64,000 nt of DNA from Haloprofundus halobius (lineage in GTDB: Archaea > Halobacteriota > Halobacteria > Halobacteriales > Haloferacaceae): NCBI RefSeq assembly GCF_020097835.1, contig NZ_CP083667.1:62001-126000 (forward strand). Reading direction: 5' to 3'. Position 1 is the stretch's first letter, and every line of letters starts with the position of its first letter. Made by a program: the position numbers and the translations under genes. The notes beneath the pieces are model-generated. The model saw nothing but the letters and a program-made list of their open reading frames with translations. It was not told where the DNA came from and did not search any database. Below, piece after piece: positions 4,792 to 49,570 of this stretch.

Positions 4792-5093
4792 GCTTGGGCC
4801 TCTTTCTGTCGTGCGTCGACTCTGAGTCCAGTGTGGGCGAGTTGACCCATCGACTCCCAGCCGCGTTTCTGGGCGACATATTGCTGCCAGTGAGAGAGTA
4901 GCCGGCCGTTGAGTGGTTGGTAGTGGTCGAGCTTGCGTCCGTGGTGGACGACGACGGCGTCAGCTGGCTGGTAGTAGTGATGGGTGTAGCCTTCTTCGTC
5001 GACGCCGAGGGTGAATGACTTGGCGAGTGTTCGAGTGAAGTGATTGATGAGCGATACGGTAGGCTCTTGTGTCGCGGCTTTCCTAGTTGACAT
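4788..5093 (-). CDS. Haloarchaeal plasmid/provirus-type hypothetical protein
   Basis: The 101-residue protein begins MSTRKAATQEPTVSLINHFT and has a His/Tyr-rich central part (GYTHHYYQPADAVVVHHGRK) and a C-terminal part with RLLSHWQQYVAQKRGWESMG. No domain is recognised. It is the first gene of a two-gene leftward unit, its stop overlapping the next start. The ATG at 5091-5093 is the only good start. Upstream lie a hairpin (5124-5145) and a 22-bp palindrome (5180-5201) that could control this unit, the divergent winged-helix gene at 5286, or both. Confidence 0.65.
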   Translation of the reverse strand: MSTRKAATQEPTVSLINHFTRTLAKSFTLGVDEEGYTHHYYQPADAVVVHHGRKLDHYQPLNGRLLSHWQQYVAQKRGWESMGQLAHTGLRVDARQKEAQA

Positions 5094-37251: not shown

Positions 37252-38148
37252 CTACTCCCACCATTGACCGCGCTCGGGGAACAATACCGTACTCCAGCCA
37301 GTCACCGCCAAGGAGACACGTCCGTTGTACCAGTTCCGTGCTGCGCCATGAATCCGAACTTGCTCACCCTCACTCACCCGCGGTTGATTTGAACGCTCCC
37401 ACACAGTCACTTTCGTCCGCCCACTCTCATCACCGATTAGTCCTACTTGCGCAATCTTCGGAGAACTCGGCTCCCACAACGTCTCTACGCGACCCTCGAT
37501 GCTCACGTCTCGTCTATCCACCTCACCGAGCATTCCAATCGACACAATACGCCCCGGTGCCGTCTGCAGTTCCTCGAACACTCCCACGACCGCGCTCAAC
37601 ACATCCGTGCCGTCGACGACGCGTTCTGCTAACCGCCGACTTATCGCCGCCTGCGACCACCCACCGAGTTTCTCACGCATCCGCGCTGCCTGTGTGTTCA
37701 CCGCCGCCAGCTCCTCTCGCGACAACTCTTCGCGAGGATCTTGTCGATCCGGTGCTGCCCACGGGTCCACACTTGCCGCTCGCTTCTGAAACTCACGCCG
37801 CCACTGCCGACTCTGCGTTCCGACGTTCTCTCGCGTTCTTTCTGCACGACCTTCCTGTAACCCCAGCGTCGCTTGGGTACTGATATGCTCTAATTCTGCT
37901 TCCCGTGCTCGGATGCGTTCTTCCTGCGCCAACGTCGCGCCCCGAATACGTTCATCACTCGAATCGACGATGCCATCTGGATGGTTGAAATCGACTTTCG
38001 CCTGTACCTCCATCCTCACCGTCGCCCGCAATTCCGATGTCTCATCGACAACCTCGAATCCGTCTTCATCGACCGCTCTCTCGTTCGTTTCTCGAAGTGC
38101 CTGTTCATCGACCGAAACAACCTTGCTACTCGCATTTGTACTCGACAT
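37252..38148 (-). CDS. OB-fold single-strand DNA-binding protein (RPA-like), plasmid type
   Basis: The protein is 298 residues from the ATG at 38148 (MSSTNASSKVVSVDEQALRE). The N-terminal 180 residues are charged and helical with repeated Glu/Arg (QEERIRAREAELEHISTQAT; ENVGTQSRQWRREFQKRAAS). The C-terminal about 100 residues form an OB-like domain: VSIEGRVETLWEPSSPKIAQ, VGLIGDESGRTKVTVWERSN, QPRVSEGEQVRIHGAARNWY, NGRVSLAVTGWSTVLFPERG. The wording 'GDESGRTKVTVW' is typical of archaeal RPA-related proteins that bind single-stranded DNA. It probably serves replication or repair of this replicon. No zinc finger is seen. Confidence 0.85.
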   Translation of the reverse strand: MSSTNASSKVVSVDEQALRETNERAVDEDGFEVVDETSELRATVRMEVQAKVDFNHPDGIVDSSDERIRGATLAQEERIRAREAELEHISTQATLGLQEGRAERTRENVGTQSRQWRREFQKRAASVDPWAAPDRQDPREELSREELAAVNTQAARMREKLGGWSQAAISRRLAERVVDGTDVLSAVVGVFEELQTAPGRIVSIGMLGEVDRRDVSIEGRVETLWEPSSPKIAQVGLIGDESGRTKVTVWERSNQPRVSEGEQVRIHGAARNWYNGRVSLAVTGWSTVLFPERGQWWE

Positions 38149-38832
38149 TGCAGTTACACCGAAGGCGCTCACTCGGCGTCTTCTTCCAACACTACGATTC
38201 TCCAGCCGCGGCTCTCTACATCATCCAACTCAACCATTGCGTGCTCTCGCTCGCGCCTTCGTGAGCGACCACCGGGAGCGAGCGAGAGCACAACCAACGT
38301 GAAGCAATCAAGCATGCGCGCCGGAGCGGCCGGACCGAGTGGCCAGCGGAGTTAGTCTCGTCGGCGACGAGCACGCCGCGCGAGCGCAGTCTGTCGACTG
38401 ACTAACCCGCTGGCGCTTCGGGAGAAGCGAACGACGTCTGGGACGACCACCGGGAGTCCCAGAGCGTGGCGAGGCGAACATCGTGAGCCGAGTCCACGCG
38501 TCCGGCCGCTGGGGACGGCGAGCGGGCGTACCAGTTCGTCATACCCAGCAGTCATCAAGGAAACGACACTGACCACTCTACATTGGGCGGGAGTGAAAGG
38601 GGCCGGGCGCTTGGTGAGCGAGCCGACACGAGGACCACAGCGGAGCGAGGACCGCAGCGAGGGTCCCGTGAGCAGCGCGAACGGGGCTCAGCGAGACCCT
38701 AGTCTCGCTAGACGCAGCCGTCGAGCGTCCAGGGGCTTTCAGAGGCTTTTATTCACAGCTGTCGCTCCACACCTCTCGATACGGAAGTGAGCAAACACTC
38801 CGAGCACGTCGACGAGGTCGGAACGTCTCGCG
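38149..38832. other. Long GC-rich intergenic region
   Basis: About 680 nt without a supported gene. It is rich in GAGCGAG/CGCGAGC-type words and short inverted pairs (e.g. around 38260-38290 and 38620-38700). No reading frame has coding character. It could be a relic or structural region of the plasmid backbone. Confidence 0.45.
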
Positions 38833-42600: not shown

Positions 42601-42756
42601 CGGTAATAGCGGCCATGTTGCTTACCGTAAGTGGTCAACCTCAGGAACTTGAGTTCGCGCCAAGGACGAGAGTCCACTCGCGCTCTGTGCATATTCCGAG
42701 AACTCGAACACGGCCTCACCAAGAGTTAATACACTATCCATAGTACATAGATTGTG

Positions 42757-43323
42757 ATGTCTGCCGATGACCGAATTGCAACCACGCCGAACCCTGAGGC
42801 GACGTTCAATGATCTGCTCACCTACGCCGAGTTGCTGAACACGCCGCGACTCGCTCGCCTCTATAGCTACATCCTCCGGCACGGCCCCGTCGAGATTGAG
42901 GCCATCAAGACTGACCTCGACATGGCGCACTCGACGACGTACAAGTACATCGGACAACTTGAGGAAATGGGCGTGCTCACGCGGGACGAGGACGTGACGC
43001 CAGCAACGGTCACGGTCGATCCGATTCGACTCCAGCTCGACACCGAACACGGGGAAGTGCTCGCAACGCCGACGCTCGTTGATGCGATTGGACGACAACT
43101 TGATACCGAAGATATCCGCGTCTTCGTTGAGCGCCAAGGAATCGCCAAACTAGCCGCTGCACTCCACTACACGCTTCGTATCATGGCCGGTGAACTCACA
43201 CAGCGGACTGCGGCAACGAAACTTGGTGTCCACCCTGTCGAAGGGATGACTGTGTTCACCGCCCTCCAAGACGTCGTCGAGGAAGCGGCCTCGTATGACC
43301 CGTATCTGGCGCGCCCTGAGTGA
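42757..43323 (+). CDS. Winged-helix regulator/antitoxin of the PIN module (DUF7437-like)
   Basis: The protein is 188 residues from the ATG at 42757, one codon after a GTG. It has a winged helix (TPRLARLYSYILRHGPVEIE, AIKTDLDMAHSTTYKYIGQL, EEMGVLTRDEDVTPATVTVD) and a C-terminal domain (VDAIGRQLDTEDIRVFVERQ, GIAKLAAALHYTLRIMAGEL) shared with the 31836-32438 protein. Its TGA overlaps the ATG of the PIN gene by one base (TGATG), so the pair is coupled. Expected role: autoregulation and neutralisation of the PIN nuclease. Confidence 0.85.
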   Translation: MSADDRIATTPNPEATFNDLLTYAELLNTPRLARLYSYILRHGPVEIEAIKTDLDMAHSTTYKYIGQLEEMGVLTRDEDVTPATVTVDPIRLQLDTEHGEVLATPTLVDAIGRQLDTEDIRVFVERQGIAKLAAALHYTLRIMAGELTQRTAATKLGVHPVEGMTVFTALQDVVEEAASYDPYLARPE

Positions 43324-43850
43324 TGTCCGGAGCGGACATTCCCAGCGACAGCACCGCCATCATCGACAGTAGCGTTCTCTTCGCGATGGGTGGTCCCTCG
43401 AACGAAAAGTACCAAGCGTTCGAGCGGTTTGTTCGTCGGCAGGGAATCACTGTTACCGTCCCCGAGCAGGTGGCCGAAGAGTTGGGTGAAAGCCCTGATG
43501 CATACGAATACCAGCGTGATCGCCTCCGCTCAGCGCAGGATGCCGGCTGGCTGAAATCTGGACACATCGACTTCTCTGTGCCGCGTGTACCAGAAGTCGT
43601 AGACAAAACACGAGCACGGATGGGAGCACTCTCAGCAGACGACGTCACGGAAGACGAAATCGAGAAAACGGATACGATTCTCGCCGGGCTTGCGTATCAA
43701 TACGTCGCAGAAGGTGCCTCCCACGTCACTGTCCTTGTTAGTGACCGCATTGCCGAACGGGCCATCGCCGATATACTTTCTGCGGTTGGGGTTGGCGATC
43801 GGACATCAATCGTCGAAGGACGTGAATTCCTGAACGAACTCACGAGTTGA
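43323..43850 (+). CDS. PIN-domain ribonuclease toxin (VapC-like)
   Basis: The 175-residue protein has the acidic PIN residues in order: TAIIDSSVLFAMGGPSNEKY (Asp), VPEQVAEELGESPDAYEY (Glu), DEIEKTDTILAGLAYQY (Asp) and VTVLVSDRIAERAI (Asp). PIN toxins cut RNA with two metal ions. It is longer than classic VapC and has a wHTH partner rather than an AbrB- or RHH-type antitoxin. A truncated paralogue is at 31639-31839. It is intact and coupled to its partner, so it is a good candidate for a working module. The RNA target is unknown. Confidence 0.88.
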   Translation: MSGADIPSDSTAIIDSSVLFAMGGPSNEKYQAFERFVRRQGITVTVPEQVAEELGESPDAYEYQRDRLRSAQDAGWLKSGHIDFSVPRVPEVVDKTRARMGALSADDVTEDEIEKTDTILAGLAYQYVAEGASHVTVLVSDRIAERAIADILSAVGVGDRTSIVEGREFLNELTS

Positions 43851-44158: not shown

Positions 44159-45388
44159 TTATTCGGCGTCTGTTCGAAAAAGACGCTTTGTTCGCCCCCA
44201 TAACGATTCCGACTCCGATCCCCCATCACTACCCTCCTCTCCGCTCACTGACTCAGTATCGTCGCCTGAGAGCTTCAACTCCAGTCGCTGAACCTCCGCT
44301 TCAAGCCACTCAATCCGCTTGTCCTTGCGCTTGATACGTGTCTCCAACGTCTCCACACGTTCTGCCAACAACCGATTCTTCTCACCTACGTATGCATCAT
44401 CACGATTCTCAGAAGCAGTAGATGGCTCCGATGGCTCTGAGACAGACTTAGTCGTCTCTTTTTTCGCGGGCGTATAGAACTCAGACGTCGTCTGTACCGC
44501 CCGCTCTATCGTTTTCTCTCCATACGTCGACCCATCCGCGTAATGGACGTCATCCCATTTCCCACGTAGTAAGCCTGACCGCCGGAAGAGTCGGTCCATT
44601 TGGGTCTTGTCACCGCCACTCCAAAACGCCAGCAGACAACACAACGCCATATCCGCCTCCGAATTACTGTCATACCCACTCGTATTCCCGTTCCAGAGTC
44701 GCTCGAACTTCGCGCCATTCGATGCACCCATCGCCTTCTCAACCAACCCTGAATCCGAAAGCCCAACCCCTTCTACTGAACTATCATCCTCACTAGCTGT
44801 TACAGTCTTAGGGCTGTGTCTCGATTGCGACTCACTCACATCCGAAATATACTCTCGATGAATTCCCGCTACTGCGTCCTGTCTGCGTTTTGCCACCTGA
44901 GGTGTACCGTCAACGTGCTTGCCTGTCACCGTGAAGAACCGCGCATTGTCATAACACTCAATCTTCCCACGTCGATTCCGTCCGTCGGGGAGTTCACCCT
45001 GAACAAGTACGTGGAACCCACTCCCTGACGGCGACACCTCCGTATAGGAGTCTAAGCGTTCGATGATATCCTGTGCATCCTCGTCGACGTCACCCGACTC
45101 CGGGTCACGACAATCATCGAGGTCGATGCCGACAATCGGATCCTCGTCAGTGAACACAAATCCGAGTCCATCCGCACCCCCAGACTGAAGATATTCGAGT
45201 GCTGTCTCGAAGTCCGACCAAGTCTCTGAATCCGTCGACGACGCGAACGAACCCACTCCAGGCTCAACCGGGACTTTTGTCGACTTCCCACCACGTTTCT
45301 CACTCCGCCAACACACCCACTGGTCTCGCTCAACCAACACATCCGGCAATCCACCCTGTGTCAACATTCTAGTAGTTACCTCACTCAT
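44159..45388 (-). CDS. PrimPol-like primase/polymerase (NrS-1 type)
   Basis: The 409-residue protein starts MSEVTTRMLTQGGLPDVLVE. It has a bifunctional primase-polymerase-like N-terminal domain: VCWRSEKRGGKSTKVPVEPG, GLGFVFTDEDPIVGIDLDDC (the DxD metal pair), VSPSGSGFHVLVQGELPDGR and IECYDNARFFTVTGKHVDG. It then has the NrS-1-type helical domain (SGYDSNSEADMALCCLLAFW, MDRLFRRSGLLRGKWDDVH). A C-terminal coiled coil follows (RVETLETRIKRKDKRIEWLE). Such enzymes start and extend DNA on plasmids and viruses. It sits near the Orc gene, consistent with a replication module. A GCGATACGG motif cluster lies upstream. Haloarchaeal versions are often annotated as phage NTP-binding proteins. Confidence 0.88.
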   Translation of the reverse strand: MSEVTTRMLTQGGLPDVLVERDQWVCWRSEKRGGKSTKVPVEPGVGSFASSTDSETWSDFETALEYLQSGGADGLGFVFTDEDPIVGIDLDDCRDPESGDVDEDAQDIIERLDSYTEVSPSGSGFHVLVQGELPDGRNRRGKIECYDNARFFTVTGKHVDGTPQVAKRRQDAVAGIHREYISDVSESQSRHSPKTVTASEDDSSVEGVGLSDSGLVEKAMGASNGAKFERLWNGNTSGYDSNSEADMALCCLLAFWSGGDKTQMDRLFRRSGLLRGKWDDVHYADGSTYGEKTIERAVQTTSEFYTPAKKETTKSVSEPSEPSTASENRDDAYVGEKNRLLAERVETLETRIKRKDKRIEWLEAEVQRLELKLSGDDTESVSGEEGSDGGSESESLWGRTKRLFRTDAE

Positions 45389-45436: not shown

Positions 45437-45493
45437 TCCCTAGAGTCGCTTCGCTCACTTGCACCGGCATACCCCCCGTCTATACTAGTTGCT

Positions 45494-45721
45494 TTTTGCG
45501 ATACGGAAGTGCGGAAACAGTCGGTAGGAGCGCTATATCGCAGTCCTACCGCATATATCGTATTTTTCTGAAATGGTGTTTCTAATATCGCATAGCGATA
45601 CGGCATGGAACACCGCCACGTCTTGCGATTTTGCAGATTTCTCCGTATCGCAAAACACGAGTTCTGTAACCTCGTCGCTGAATGCGATACAACTGCAGTA
45701 GAAGCCCTATACCGTACGATA
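45494..45721. promoter_or_regulatory. GCGATACGG motif cluster, candidate iterons or operators
   Basis: GCGATACGG occurs at 45498-45506 and 45595-45603 and inverted (CCGTATCGC) at 45643-45651. Partial copies are TATCGC at 45536, TATCGT at 45556, GCGATT at 45625, GCGATAC at 45684 and TACGATA near 45715. TATCGC-ata-GCGATA at 45586-45600 is a perfect inverted repeat. The AT-rich 230 nt hold no gene and lie between the primase and the plasmid protein gene. Confidence 0.6.
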
Positions 45722-45724
45722 TTG

Positions 45725-47133
45725 CTATTCATTGGGTTCCTCCGAATTGCGGAGTGAAATCCCTGAATAGTAGACTGTTGCTTCCCCATTTGGGTGGCGT
45801 GTCACCCGTTCAAAATCTATCTGATTACTGAGACGACGCCCAAACCAATTCTTCGAATCGACAGTGGCATTATGATTTTTTGCCCACAGTTGGTACCGTT
45901 CATAGACATCCGCTGACTTGACTGCGCTTCCCTCATCGACCACCAAACATTCCTTCGCAAACTGTTCGGTGACGACATTCGGGTCGTCTCTCCAACCCGA
46001 ATCGAGTTCAGGATGAGCCGCATCATTGTTCTCCTGAGATGCAGTTGTCTGTGGGTCGTTCGCAGAGACAAACGATGCCTCAAGAAGTATTTCAAGTGAC
46101 TTGGTGGACCGTCCATCATAGACGACCGGATCACCATCATCACGAAGGATGACGATTGCATAGCTGTCTGTGCCGTATGTCGGATTCGTCAACTCCTCTG
46201 CAGGGATGAACGGCTTGCTGATTTTCACCCACTCTGCCTCGAACGCGTCCTTTGACTCATAGGCGTGAATCTCCCCACGCTCGTAGACGAGATACTCTTC
46301 GACCGGACGATCGTAGCTGTAGGTTGCTGGCACGCGATCTTTCGTCACTTCGTCCCACGTAGAGACACGGAAATGCTCTGTCCCAGTTCCATCTCGGAAG
46401 GCAATCTCGTCTCCATCTTTTACCCACACAGAGCGCTTTGAGTCGTCACTCCCACTTACTGGGCGAACAGCCGTCACGCCACCACGCTCGGTCGCTCCAC
46501 CATTGAACGTGAGTGGGACGTCATGGGTATAGAATCGAGTCTCCCCGTTTGCGAGCTCACGAACCGGGGATGAGAGGACTCGGTCAAGTCGCTCGGCCCA
46601 GTAGGTCTCTGTCTCACCCGGTTGGACGACAAAGAGCGGAACTGTGCTCTCCGCTTGTGCCTTCTGGAGGTTCGTGAGTACCTTCGCTGGGTTTTTCGGG
46701 GTTGTCGTCTCGACCTCGATTACGAACGGCGTTTCGAGGTCCGGATGTGTCGCTCTCGCGTCCGGTTTCTCACACCCATCTTGCGTGAGAACCGAGACGG
46801 TGAATCCTAGGGGCGACAACGCCTGTTCGATCTCCAAGAGAGCATCGTCGTGGTCACCCCCACCGGCGGATTGTACGTCGCCTGTGTCGGGTTCGGCTTC
46901 GGTTTCTCCGGCGTCGGTGAGTCGGACGATGAGTTCGTCGGCGTCGATATCGACCGTGGTATCGAGCAGCCGGGACCGTGTCCGGATTTCTGTGAGTTCC
47001 TCATAGGTCGGTGGCTCTGCTTCGACCTCTGCGAGTGTAGCGGGTGTTTGATACGGACTGCAGACTTCCTCACTAAGTTTCTGCCTTACCGATGTAGCGA
47101 GGCCAAATATCGTCGAATTGCTGGAGACGACAT
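45725..47133 (-). pseudogene. Plasmid-type protein with C-terminal winged helix, probable frameshift near its 5' end
   Basis: From about 47090 leftward the frame reads SVRQKLSEEVCSPYQTPATL ... DTTVDIDADELIVRLTDAGE ... HDDALLEIEQALSPLGFTVS and on to the stop at 45725. It then has QAQAESTVPLFVVQPGETET-like text and a C-terminal part DVYERYQLWAKNHNATVDSK, NWFGRRLSNQIDFERVTRHP, which resembles primase-linked winged helices. No ATG or GTG opens this frame. An ATG at 47133 gives MSSPAIRRYLASLHR and stops at 47088-47090; a single-base shift there would join both parts. Function unknown; it belongs to the replication region. A TTG at 46837 is an alternative internal start. Confidence 0.6.
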
Positions 47134-47327
47134 CGAGGACGCCGGAACGGGCGTCTGAGTTACGGGTCAGACACCCGGAGCAGAATATCTGAAAACGTCA
47201 GTTCGACTGCTCGTTAATCCTCGGCAGTACAACAGCAAAAGCGGGCTTACCGACGCCCGCTATTACCACGGTGGATCCTTCCGCAGGAATGTATGCTGAA
47301 CTTCTTCCGAGTCGAGAAAGGAGAGAC

Positions 47328-47390
47328 TCCTCTATCGATTTGTTGTGGGAGAAACCACCAATCGCCAGAGACACACCCCTATCGATTTGT
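47328..47390 (+). repeat. Origin-type repeats downstream of orc
   Basis: CCTCTATCGATTTGTT (47328-47343) and CCCCTATCGATTTGTT (47375-47390) are in the same orientation as the repeats upstream of the gene. They lie just after the orc stop at 47403 in transcription terms, so the gene has origin-type repeats on both sides. Confidence 0.8.
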
Positions 47391-47402
47391 TCCGAGAAGG
47401 AG

Positions 47403-48725
47403 TTATTGATTGATCTGAGCCTTCACGACTGTCTGTAGTTCGTCCACGTGGACGTCCTTCAGTCGCGAATCTTCCCGAAGTGTCTCGATGATGGTGTTCG
47501 GATTCTCTCCAAACGTAAACTCGAGGTAGCTTCCCGAGTGTGGCCCCTGGCTTTTCCGCTCTGTCTCGACCAAGGAATACGTCGTGAGCTCCTTCATCTT
47601 GTTCACGTACGTCTCCTGGTGATACTGATCTGCATCGAGTGTCCCCGTCAGATACTGATACACGCGGTAGCCGAGCGGACTTTTCGCTGCCCCCCCGGTC
47701 TCCCGGGCAACGGCAGCAGTCGCGAAGAGACAGAGCTTCTTCTGGGTACTAATCCCACGAGTCACTTCGAGTACGCGGTTCTTCTCGACTTTGTCTTGGG
47801 CCTCTCGAATGTGCTCTTCGCGAACCTGGTCCACATTTGCTTTTTCAGCGATTGATCCTGCTGTTCGCATGAGGTCGATTGCCTTCCGTGCGTCCCCGTT
47901 CGTTTGGGCGGCGAACGCTGCTGCTAGTGGGATGACATCGCTACTGAGTGCACCCTCGTGGAAGGCATCTTCGCGGGCCCACAGAATTTCTCGGAGCTGG
48001 TTGGCGTCGTAGTCGCTGAAGTGGACGTCCTCGGGCGTAAACGAACTGAGTGCTCGACTGCCAACGTTCTCCATCATCTTCGTGTCGTTGGTGATGGCGG
48101 TCACCGAAACCTGGGCGGTAATCTCATCCGTACTGCCAGCACGAGACAACTGGTAAAGAAGACGAGAGAAGGCCGGTTCGTCCATATCTCGGCGGCCAAC
48201 AAGCATATCGAGTTCGTCGAGGATGAAGACGACTGTGTCGTAGTGCTCGTTGATTAGACGATAGAGTTCTCGCCATTTCTTCTTGTTTGGGATGCCGTGT
48301 TCTGGAACCTCGACGGTTGTTCCGACGTCGTTGGCGACTTTGCGGGCTAACTCATAGACAGCTGAGCCGAGAGTCCCGATGTTCTGGCAGTTCATCTGGA
48401 TTACGCCGAATCTAATATCACGGCTTTCGCAGAGTTCGACGATGTTCGTACAGACGGCGTTGATGATGAGTGACTTCCCGGTCCCTGATGGGCCATAGAG
48501 GAAGAGATTCGGGGGACGTTCGTTTCTGATCGCGACGCGAAGATGCTGGGTAATGTCCGTAAGTTGGGAGTCGCGACCGACGATACGTTCCTCGTCGACG
48601 ATCTCGTTCGGTTCGAGAAGAGATCGGTTCTTGATGAGGCTCGCGGCTTCTTCCTGCTCGAGGATGAGATCTTTAATAGAACTCGTGGACTCGGGTGTTT
48701 CCTCGGGACCAGGATCCGTGGGCAT
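47403..48725 (-). CDS. orc: Orc1/Cdc6 replication initiator
   Basis: The protein is 440 residues from the ATG at 48725 (MPTDPGPEETPESTSSIKDL). AAA+ features: Walker A LFLYGPSGTGKSLIINAVCT, Walker B VVFILDELDMLVG, sensor 1 VSVTAITND, sensor 2 region with TNGDARKAIDLMRTAGSIAE. A C-terminal winged helix (LGYRVYQYLTGTLDADQYHQ, ETYVNKMKELTTYSLVETER) binds origin repeats. Archaeal Orc1/Cdc6 binds its cognate repeats, melts the AT-rich core and recruits MCM. The specific repeat family (CCCCTATCGATTTGTT) lies upstream and downstream, so gene and origin are a matched pair. It probably drives replication of this replicon. Confidence 0.95.
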   Translation of the reverse strand: MPTDPGPEETPESTSSIKDLILEQEEAASLIKNRSLLEPNEIVDEERIVGRDSQLTDITQHLRVAIRNERPPNLFLYGPSGTGKSLIINAVCTNIVELCESRDIRFGVIQMNCQNIGTLGSAVYELARKVANDVGTTVEVPEHGIPNKKKWRELYRLINEHYDTVVFILDELDMLVGRRDMDEPAFSRLLYQLSRAGSTDEITAQVSVTAITNDTKMMENVGSRALSSFTPEDVHFSDYDANQLREILWAREDAFHEGALSSDVIPLAAAFAAQTNGDARKAIDLMRTAGSIAEKANVDQVREEHIREAQDKVEKNRVLEVTRGISTQKKLCLFATAAVARETGGAAKSPLGYRVYQYLTGTLDADQYHQETYVNKMKELTTYSLVETERKSQGPHSGSYLEFTFGENPNTIIETLREDSRLKDVHVDELQTVVKAQINQ

Positions 48726-48759
48726 ACCCCACCCCACTCTATCAGGATACTAAAAGATT

Positions 48760-49570
48760 CCCCTGTCGATTTCTTTTTTCCCTCTACGAGGCTCAGAGGC
48801 AGAGAATCAAAGAGTTCTAGTGTTTTGCTCGTAGACCCCCGACGATTTGTTCGGGAGGATTTCGTGGCACGATATCGAGAGGGACGAAGAACACCCTCTC
48901 ACCCCTATCGATTTGTTCTGGCCACAAAGGATGGGTGGGGGTGACTCGATTCCGATTACGTTGTTACTACCTCTAGACCGAGAACTCCATTGAATCGGTT
49001 GTTGTTCTCTATCTCTTCTTCTTTCTTCTAGTTCTAACACTAGCCTAGATAGAGTAGACACACTCCTATCGATTTGTTCTAACTAACCGATGTCGTCCGA
49101 TTTGCTTCTGTATACTCACTTAAACAGGTGTCTTTAGCGTGGATACGAATGGTCTCAATTTCTCCGATATAAGTTCTTAGACACCAATCTAAATTTGTCC
49201 GGTCTCCCCTATCGATTTGTTCGATATCAACGCCGCCTCCCGGAAACCGATAAAATAGTAATTTAAACGAGGGGAATTACGCCAGGAGGTCCCCAGCAGC
49301 GAGACATCCAATTACTTCCATTGGTCCAAAACTCGTCCTGTGGTGCTCTTTCGTACGGGAACAAATCGATAGGGGGTGAGAGAGTGGTTCCAGAGTCGGT
49401 ACCACAATATAGAGCCCAGTTATCAACTGATATCTTCTCATTAGCAGATTCACGTCGTATCTCAGGGTGTTTCGGGTGAGTCACCATCCTCCTTGGAGGC
49501 ATTTCTCCGAACAAATCGATAGGGGTGACTCTGTGTCTGCACGTGGTTTCGCAAAACAAGTCGATAGGGG
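48760..49570. other. Replication origin with inverted iterons and AT-rich core
   Basis: On the plus strand CCCCTATCGATTTGTT or close variants lie at 48760-48775 (weak), 48836-48851 (weak), 48902-48917, 49063-49078 and 49206-49221. In reverse, AACAAATCGATAGGGG lies at 49360-49375, 49510-49525 and (one mismatch) 49555-49570. The inward-facing sets flank AT-rich stretches (about 49000-49060, 49080-49200, 49240-49270). This is the usual haloarchaeal origin plan: Orc-specific repeats in inverted orientation around an unwinding region next to the orc gene. No coding frame is seen. Confidence 0.85.

Follow-up and report, generated by a model that had tools for sequence, protein, structure and literature searches.

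We find that a cluster of short repeats beside a primase gene of Haloprofundus halobius is probably part of a transfer origin (oriT/clt-like) for a relaxase-less type of haloarchaeal conjugation. As read from the sequence, the repeats are putative sites for the winged helix of a HerA/TraD-type coupling ATPase, and together with an adjoining conserved block they would make up the origin. Sequence and structure both support this reading, through the match between site and domain, the fixed geometry of the sites, the fold assignments and the gene neighborhood. The cluster lies in a 64,000-nt stretch of DNA (the window), which covers bases 62001 to 126000 of contig C2 (422,800 bases) in a five-contig genome.

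Six exact GCGATA/TATCGC cores occur at 45498 to 45689, in the interval bounded by the primase start (45388) and the upstream gene's stop (45725), and three of them extend to the 9-mer GCGATACGG (45498 +, 45595 + and 45643 −). A motif search places full copies (TGCGATACGG) at 45497 to 45506 (+), adjoining the conserved block, and at 45643 to 45652 (−), with partial copies at 45533 to 45542 (−; TGCGATATAG) and 45683 to 45692 (+; TGCGATACAA). The arms of an inverted repeat, TATCGC-ATA-GCGATA (45586 to 45600), belong to copies at 45583 to 45592 (−) and 45594 to 45603 (+; AGCGATACGG). Further partial copies lie at 45553, 45624 and approximately 45707 to 45722. Read on the primase strand, the block-side copy (45497 to 45506) is CCGTATCGCA, immediately 5' of AAAAGCAACTAGTATAG. 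The preliminary description of this region had reported about eight full or partial copies in both orientations, a perfect inverted repeat and an AT-rich setting (46.5% GC in 45494 to 45721 versus 56.8% in the whole window), and all of this is a fair account. Its view of the repeats as an iteron-type cluster, likely to be recognized by a protein and lying next to a primase, also appears right from the sequence.

The cluster holds 6 of the 28 GCGATA/TATCGC hexamers of the 64-kb window, the other 22 being scattered outside it, and three of the four GCGATACGG 9-mers. In the 234 nt from the upstream stop to the conserved block, the best 9-mer has five non-overlapping copies (at most one mismatch, both strands), and none of 500 Markov shuffles of that stretch reached five or more. 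However, 24 of the 911 overlapping stretches of 280 nt in the window also reach a raw count of five or six (the top listed examples are GC-rich words past 52 kb), so that the count alone is unconvincing. We therefore dropped raw repeat number as evidence, and it is the comparative evidence that bears the case.

We searched 391 genomes of the class for the primase, of which 158 were positive (E ≤ 1e-60). The comparison set consisted of 120 primase loci and the window (121 loci), and a homologue of the window's upstream gene, which encodes 370 amino acids (hereafter the tail gene), was found upstream on the same strand in 113 of the 121. Filtering left 111 loci with the tail gene within 700 nt, 104 with the conserved block at two mismatches or fewer, 91 after removal of tail proteins outside 300 to 440 amino acids and of six loci without a clear repeat (L144, L193, L199, L204, L208 and L221), and finally 75 non-redundant loci. 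Repeats were called blind to the protein sequences; the distances between them depend on the consensus calling.

One word is repeated at nearly every locus, mostly three to six times, and the exact word usually differs between loci (TGTTACGGCA, TGTTCCACCCA, TGTTCAGGGCA, TGTCCACGCA, TGTCCGGGGTA, GTTACGACA, TGTCCAGGCA, GGTCAGGGG and others). The ATCGCA word of the window was found in locus L107, from the same genus, and in L006 (the latter by eye). The best count averages 4.37 across the 104 loci versus 2.29 in shuffles, and at least four copies are present in 92 of the 104 loci versus 39 of 2080 shuffles. Positions are kept while words differ. Relative to the block, one layout has sites at approximately −180 (+), −120 (+), −100 (−), often −65 (−), and −15 (+), and a second has them at approximately −100, −82, −58 and −27, mostly (+); each layout is common to several unrelated words. 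Nine repeat classes recur in at least two loci. The preliminary description expected the motif itself to be enriched at homologous loci. Taken literally, this result goes against it, as the exact word is not common to the loci, but the presence of other words at the same positions offsets the failure.

Beside the repeats, and adjoining the last of them, is a near-invariant block (AAAACCRACTAGTATAG), with the consensus caAaAAcCaACTAGtATAga over the 75 loci; in the window it reads AAAAAGCAACTAGTATAG (45480 to 45497, −). A 16-mer pattern of the block (AAACCRACTAGTATAS) has 75 matches in 49 of the 391 genomes, whereas the reversed control has one, and 59 of the 75 matches lie no more than 500 nt upstream of a primase listed in the 391-genome search. 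The window and the second copy in its genome (on contig C3) have AAAGC for AAACC and thus are not among these matches. The other 16 matches fall in 15 loci, nine of which contain whole or broken primase or ATPase-tail sequence. A separate search for an exact 15-mer of the block in viral contigs gave 29 stretches, approximately the number estimated for chance, and was discarded. The region immediately precedes the primase start and its block is AT-rich and TATA-like, so the repeats and block could instead be the promoter and operator of the primase operon, autoregulated by the C-terminal domain of the ATPase. We consider this very unlikely: six loci keep repeats and block with no recognized primase or ATPase tail within approximately 2 kb, and, unlike a general promoter, the 16-mer is nearly restricted to the loci described here.

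The tail gene of the window (45725 to 46837, −) is the C-terminal remnant of a coupling ATPase. In annotated plasmids, it corresponds to the tail of a protein of 1,387 to 1,436 amino acids, annotated as 'conjugal transfer protein' or 'primase-like DNA-binding domain-containing protein', whose ATPase part matches the SXT_TraD, CedB and HerA profiles. Furthermore, in 102 of 111 loci no stop interrupts the frame of the tail before the fetched stretch ends. Our own first reading, a 370-amino-acid initiator at an iteron origin, was displaced by this correspondence to an approximately 1,400-amino-acid ATPase, and the 'plasmid-type protein' of the preliminary description is more exactly a remnant of a conjugation-type ATPase.

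The 370-amino-acid tail protein of the window, modeled with AlphaFold2 (mean pLDDT 88), has two parts, at residues ~1 to 257 and ~285 to 365. The C-terminal domain of the model matches RFX5 (8zjr; Z 11.9), RFX1 bound to its X-box (1dp7; Z 11.0) and the origin-binding domain of phage P4 (1ka8; Z 8.8 over 77 residues). Among 64 family members, the Pox_D5 profile was found in 50 and RFX in 10, and a sequence search of solved structures gave four weak matches (E 0.015 to 0.33), two of them to RFX. Judged by its modeled fold, this domain is a P4/RFX-type winged helix. The modeled N-terminal part resembles PD-(D/E)XK nucleases, namely PaqCI (Z 8.8), DdmD (7.3), the archaeal Hjc (7.1) and FokI (5.8), and likely has that fold. 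Acidic and lysine positions are conserved across 103 sequences (E4 in 93, D26 in 102, E41 and E43 in 101 each, and K52 in 97). Note that Z values below 8 are weak, so that the nuclease is a likely fold rather than a demonstrated activity.

The repeat word tracks one domain of this protein. Before partialling, repeat distance correlates with every domain, because all of them are linked. Across the 75 non-redundant loci, the partial correlation is confined to the C-terminal winged helix (partial Mantel test, r = 0.396, P = 0.002), with r ranging from −0.04 to 0.07 (P = 0.07 to 0.79) for every other domain of both the upstream protein and the primase. When nearest neighbors are assigned by winged helix, their words agree in 64 of 75 cases, compared with 58 for the mid part and 42 for the N-terminal part of the fragment, and with 27, 21 and 26 for the PrimPol domain, the HBD and the tail of the primase. 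Similarly, the thirteen word classes require a minimum of 14 changes on the winged-helix tree, 21 on that of the rest of the fragment and 36 on the primase tree (74 rows), versus 43 to 53 (about 48) for shuffled labels.

The window's own genome contains a clear example. The C3 locus is nearly the same as the window in PrimPol (91% identical), HBD (95%) and the N-terminal (93%) and mid (90%) parts of the fragment, but its winged helix is only 53% identical and its word differs (TGTTACGGCA). L107 is 68% identical to the window in PrimPol and 77% in the winged helix, and its last repeat is one position apart (CCGCATCGCA versus CCGTATCGCA). Within the winged helix, many of the strongest mutual-information columns fall in the wing (344 to 356) and others in the helices, which is a hint only, being uncorrected for phylogeny. 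The primase was considered as the reader of the repeats, given that the NrS-1 polymerase is template-specific, but we rejected it as the main reader, since none of its parts (PrimPol, HBD and tail) is partially correlated with the word. Physical linkage joins the ATPase, winged helix, repeats and primase, and hitch-hiking could account for part of the covariation; the word is also predicted by the fragment's mid part. Yet the primase, which is about equally close on the other side, is not tracked, and this argues against linkage as the whole cause.

The wider neighborhood is one of conjugation genes. VirB4 is encoded within 10 kb upstream at 31 of 38 primase loci from 26 genomes, on the same strand and 4.5 to 8.8 kb away; the window is one of the seven loci without it. 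Upstream of the ATPase, one plasmid has a gene annotated VirB4 and another a TrbL/VirB6 protein (E 2e-139). Six sister VirB4/ATPase clusters (L282 to L287) have the same ATPase body with no match to the nuclease or winged helix, and both block and primase are absent from the downstream stretch fetched for all six. One of these, L282, is on contig C4 of the window's genome. By profile comparison, its tail is unrelated to the nuclease/winged-helix tail, and neither this tail nor the two following genes have an informative Pfam match.

By three relaxase-type profiles, the relaxase expected near a classical oriT is essentially absent. Among 23 genomes, PF03432 was matched in one (borderline and on another contig), and PF08751 and PF02486 in none. 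MOB-suite typing in PLSDB classes 133 of 135 primase plasmids as non-mobilizable, a figure that fits a missing relaxase and equally fits no transfer.

Downstream of the repeats, the primase gene (44159 to 45388, −) encodes a 409-amino-acid NrS-1-type primase-polymerase. It matches PF22763 (E 1.9e-29), the NrS-1 helix-bundle domain, at residues 243 to 307, after the PrimPol domain. Its nearest named relatives are from Haloprofundus (Haloferacaceae), and all 497 records of bacterial phage primases are less than 60% identical to it. The window also encodes an OB-fold single-strand-binding-like protein (37252 to 38172, −; PF01336, E 1.6e-6), a homologue of which (56% identity) lies downstream of the primase in a plasmid of Halobacterium sp. 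GN101. Two adjacent genes, at 43320 to 43850 (no Pfam match) and 42754 to 43323 (a winged-helix DUF7437 protein), have relatives near the primase in several other loci and are possibly a stabilization module. A third, diverged primase copy (L045; 50% identity) is on C1, the largest contig of the window's genome, with neither a tail gene nor clear repeats.

A primase and a P4-type domain would be equally at home in replication and in transfer, which counts against a transfer origin. The winged-helix protein might therefore be an iteron-binding initiator that opens the DNA, as P4 alpha does, with the NrS-1-type primase starting at the invariant block and the words acting as incompatibility groups. 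The P4 origin-binding fold, the prevalence of Pox_D5 in the family and the NrS-1-family primase directly downstream are all consistent with such a replication origin, as is the coexistence of two same-family loci with different words in one genome. In addition, NrS-1 polymerase is reported to start on 5'-TTTGGTTA-3' (PMC8718748), and TTGGTT occurs on the lower strand of the consensus block (TTGCTT in the window), although this could just as well mark where the transferred strand is primed, or be accidental. However, in relatives, the binding domain belongs to a coupling-type ATPase within a VirB4/VirB6 cluster, which would be unusual for an initiator. The gene beside the repeats, which at an iteron origin might be the initiator, encodes a coupling-type ATPase that also has a P4-type domain. 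An Orc1/Cdc6 gene is on the same contig as the cassette in all eight fully listed genomes that were checked, so another replication route exists, even if this is compatible with a second origin. We thus consider a replication origin the less likely reading, though it is the main rival and a serious one. The preliminary description favored a replication control site, which is no longer the likeliest role now that the neighbor is recognized as a remnant of a conjugation-type ATPase, and for this reason we rank a transfer origin above it.

The window's copy is itself incomplete. It retains the equivalent of ATPase residues 945 to 1377 (47083 to 45752), the homologous frame continuing to 47083, and the best available start of the fragment is a TTG. 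Beyond the truncation is an Orc1/Cdc6 initiator gene (47403 to 48737, −; TIGR02928, E 1.1e-119) with its own, different origin repeats (CCCCTATCGATTTGTT at 47376, 48902 and 49206, and in reverse at 49360 and 49510). These repeats are real and a wholly different word, as the preliminary description had stated, but they are not simply '3 kb away': the nearest copy is at 1.7 kb and the others at approximately 3 to 4 kb. The truncation adjoins the extra copy at 47376, and the position of the breakpoint (47083 to 47403) beside it suggests that the origin module was inserted or that a deletion ended there. Other primase loci had no Orc1/Cdc6 match, within flanks of 4 kb at most.

In the same genome, the C3 copy has a full-length ATPase, VirB4 upstream and different repeats. 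Having lost the ATPase part of the protein as well as VirB4, the window's copy would depend on a matching protein supplied in trans, unless it is a relic; on its sequence, the site is an orphan or a relic. The truncated ATPase, the lack of VirB4 nearby, the TTG as only start and the Orc1/Cdc6-type repeat at the truncation are what a non-functional relic of a lost transfer region would look like. Nevertheless, the block remains intact together with five or more repeats, what is left of the nuclease-like and winged-helix sequence is still an open frame, and a complete plasmid in the same genus (L107) has nearly the same last repeat and a similar winged helix. We see a substantial but less than even chance that the cluster is such a relic, a reading that is compatible with the transfer origin.

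Stand-alone sites (L258, L259, L264, L266, L268 and L269), with repeats and block and no recognizable primase or tail within approximately 2 kb, are located mid-stretch, on large contigs or chromosomes, and could be relics or else serve for mobilization in trans. The word at L258 is that of the full locus L202 in the same genome; likewise, L264 matches L141 in its word, and L268 approximately matches L257, each within one genome, whereas the word at L266 is unlike that of its genome's full locus, L137. Genome G246 encodes a coupling ATPase on contig C1 whose binding domain shares 94% identity with that of L202 (word GTCCAGGCA). In the same genome, L269, a stand-alone site, lies on C2, unlinked to this gene, yet carries exactly that word. 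The ATPase gene is followed, and apparently truncated, by a transposase. At L289 (near 4943 to 4964), a chromosomal copy of the coupling ATPase apparently ends early, just past the recognition helix, and a DDE transposase gene comes directly after it.

Under the transfer-origin reading, the winged helix would dock the coupling ATPase on its own plasmid, and the nuclease domain of the same protein would cut or nick nearby, perhaps at the invariant block. The ATPase would then pump DNA through a VirB4/VirB6 channel, and the second strand would be made by the primase and the OB-fold protein. Repeat words would diverge between plasmids so that each coupling protein selects its own DNA.

This logic, a sequence-specific domain on a DNA-pumping ATPase combined with plasmid-varying repeats, is that of TraB and its TRS repeats in Streptomyces, and it is why we take the locus as a transfer origin. 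TRS words differ between Streptomyces plasmids and follow the C-terminal winged helix of TraB. As described for the TraB/clt system, this DNA-pumping ATPase recognizes 8-bp TRS repeats on its own plasmid and is the single plasmid protein that transfer needs (PMC4170104, PMC12857230). Here, too, plasmid-specific short repeats covary with the winged helix of a putative pumping ATPase, by all three measures given above. However, TraB is FtsK-like and has no known T4SS subunits, whereas the ATPase here is archaeal and HerA/TraD-like, occurs with VirB4/VirB6 and a primase, and carries a predicted PD-(D/E)XK fold with an RFX/P4-type winged helix.

Other systems share single features with this locus. 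P4 has short repeats in an intergenic region near its primase function, and P4 alpha, a replication protein, unites primase, helicase and binding domain. The repeats here are similarly placed and the modeled winged-helix fold is like that of P4 alpha, but here the primase is encoded separately and the binding domain forms part of a coupling ATPase. Iteron plasmid origins have repeat clusters, a cognate binding protein and sequence diversification. The locus likewise has a repeat cluster, a candidate cognate protein and diversified words, although it differs in that none of the four annotated regions that we viewed, in which many neighbors are hypothetical proteins, shows a Rep-type initiator next to the repeats. 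At haloarchaeal orc1/cdc6 origins, the binding protein and adjacent ORB repeats are described as linked in sequence family (PMC3528665). Such a link between repeats and an adjacent predicted binding protein is also found here, but with other words, which do not qualify as ORBs, and another protein. Finally, accounts of the Ced/Ted systems and of archaeal conjugative plasmids describe VirB4 with a HerA/VirD4-type ATPase and recognize no relaxase (PMC9905601, PMC12857230). The present locus is alike in both respects, but a sequence-specific recognition site is proposed here and none is described in these accounts. We found no description of such a site among the titles and abstract openings of the open-access literature searched.

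The locus bears on how DNA is selected and processed in archaeal conjugation. More speculatively, and with the balance somewhat against it, haloarchaeal conjugative plasmids could dispense with a relaxase because their coupling ATPase combines a site-specific winged helix of its own with a nuclease, reads plasmid-specific repeats, cuts at the invariant ACTAGTATAG block and pumps the DNA; stand-alone sites would then let chromosomes and megaplasmids be mobilized in trans. With a site of approximately 250 nt, a predicted reader domain, nine recurring repeat classes and a group that includes genetically tractable members, the proposal is directly testable, for instance by exchanging specificities among natural plasmids. 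Together, the repeats and block make a candidate plasmid-address site, a component missing from descriptions of archaeal conjugation.
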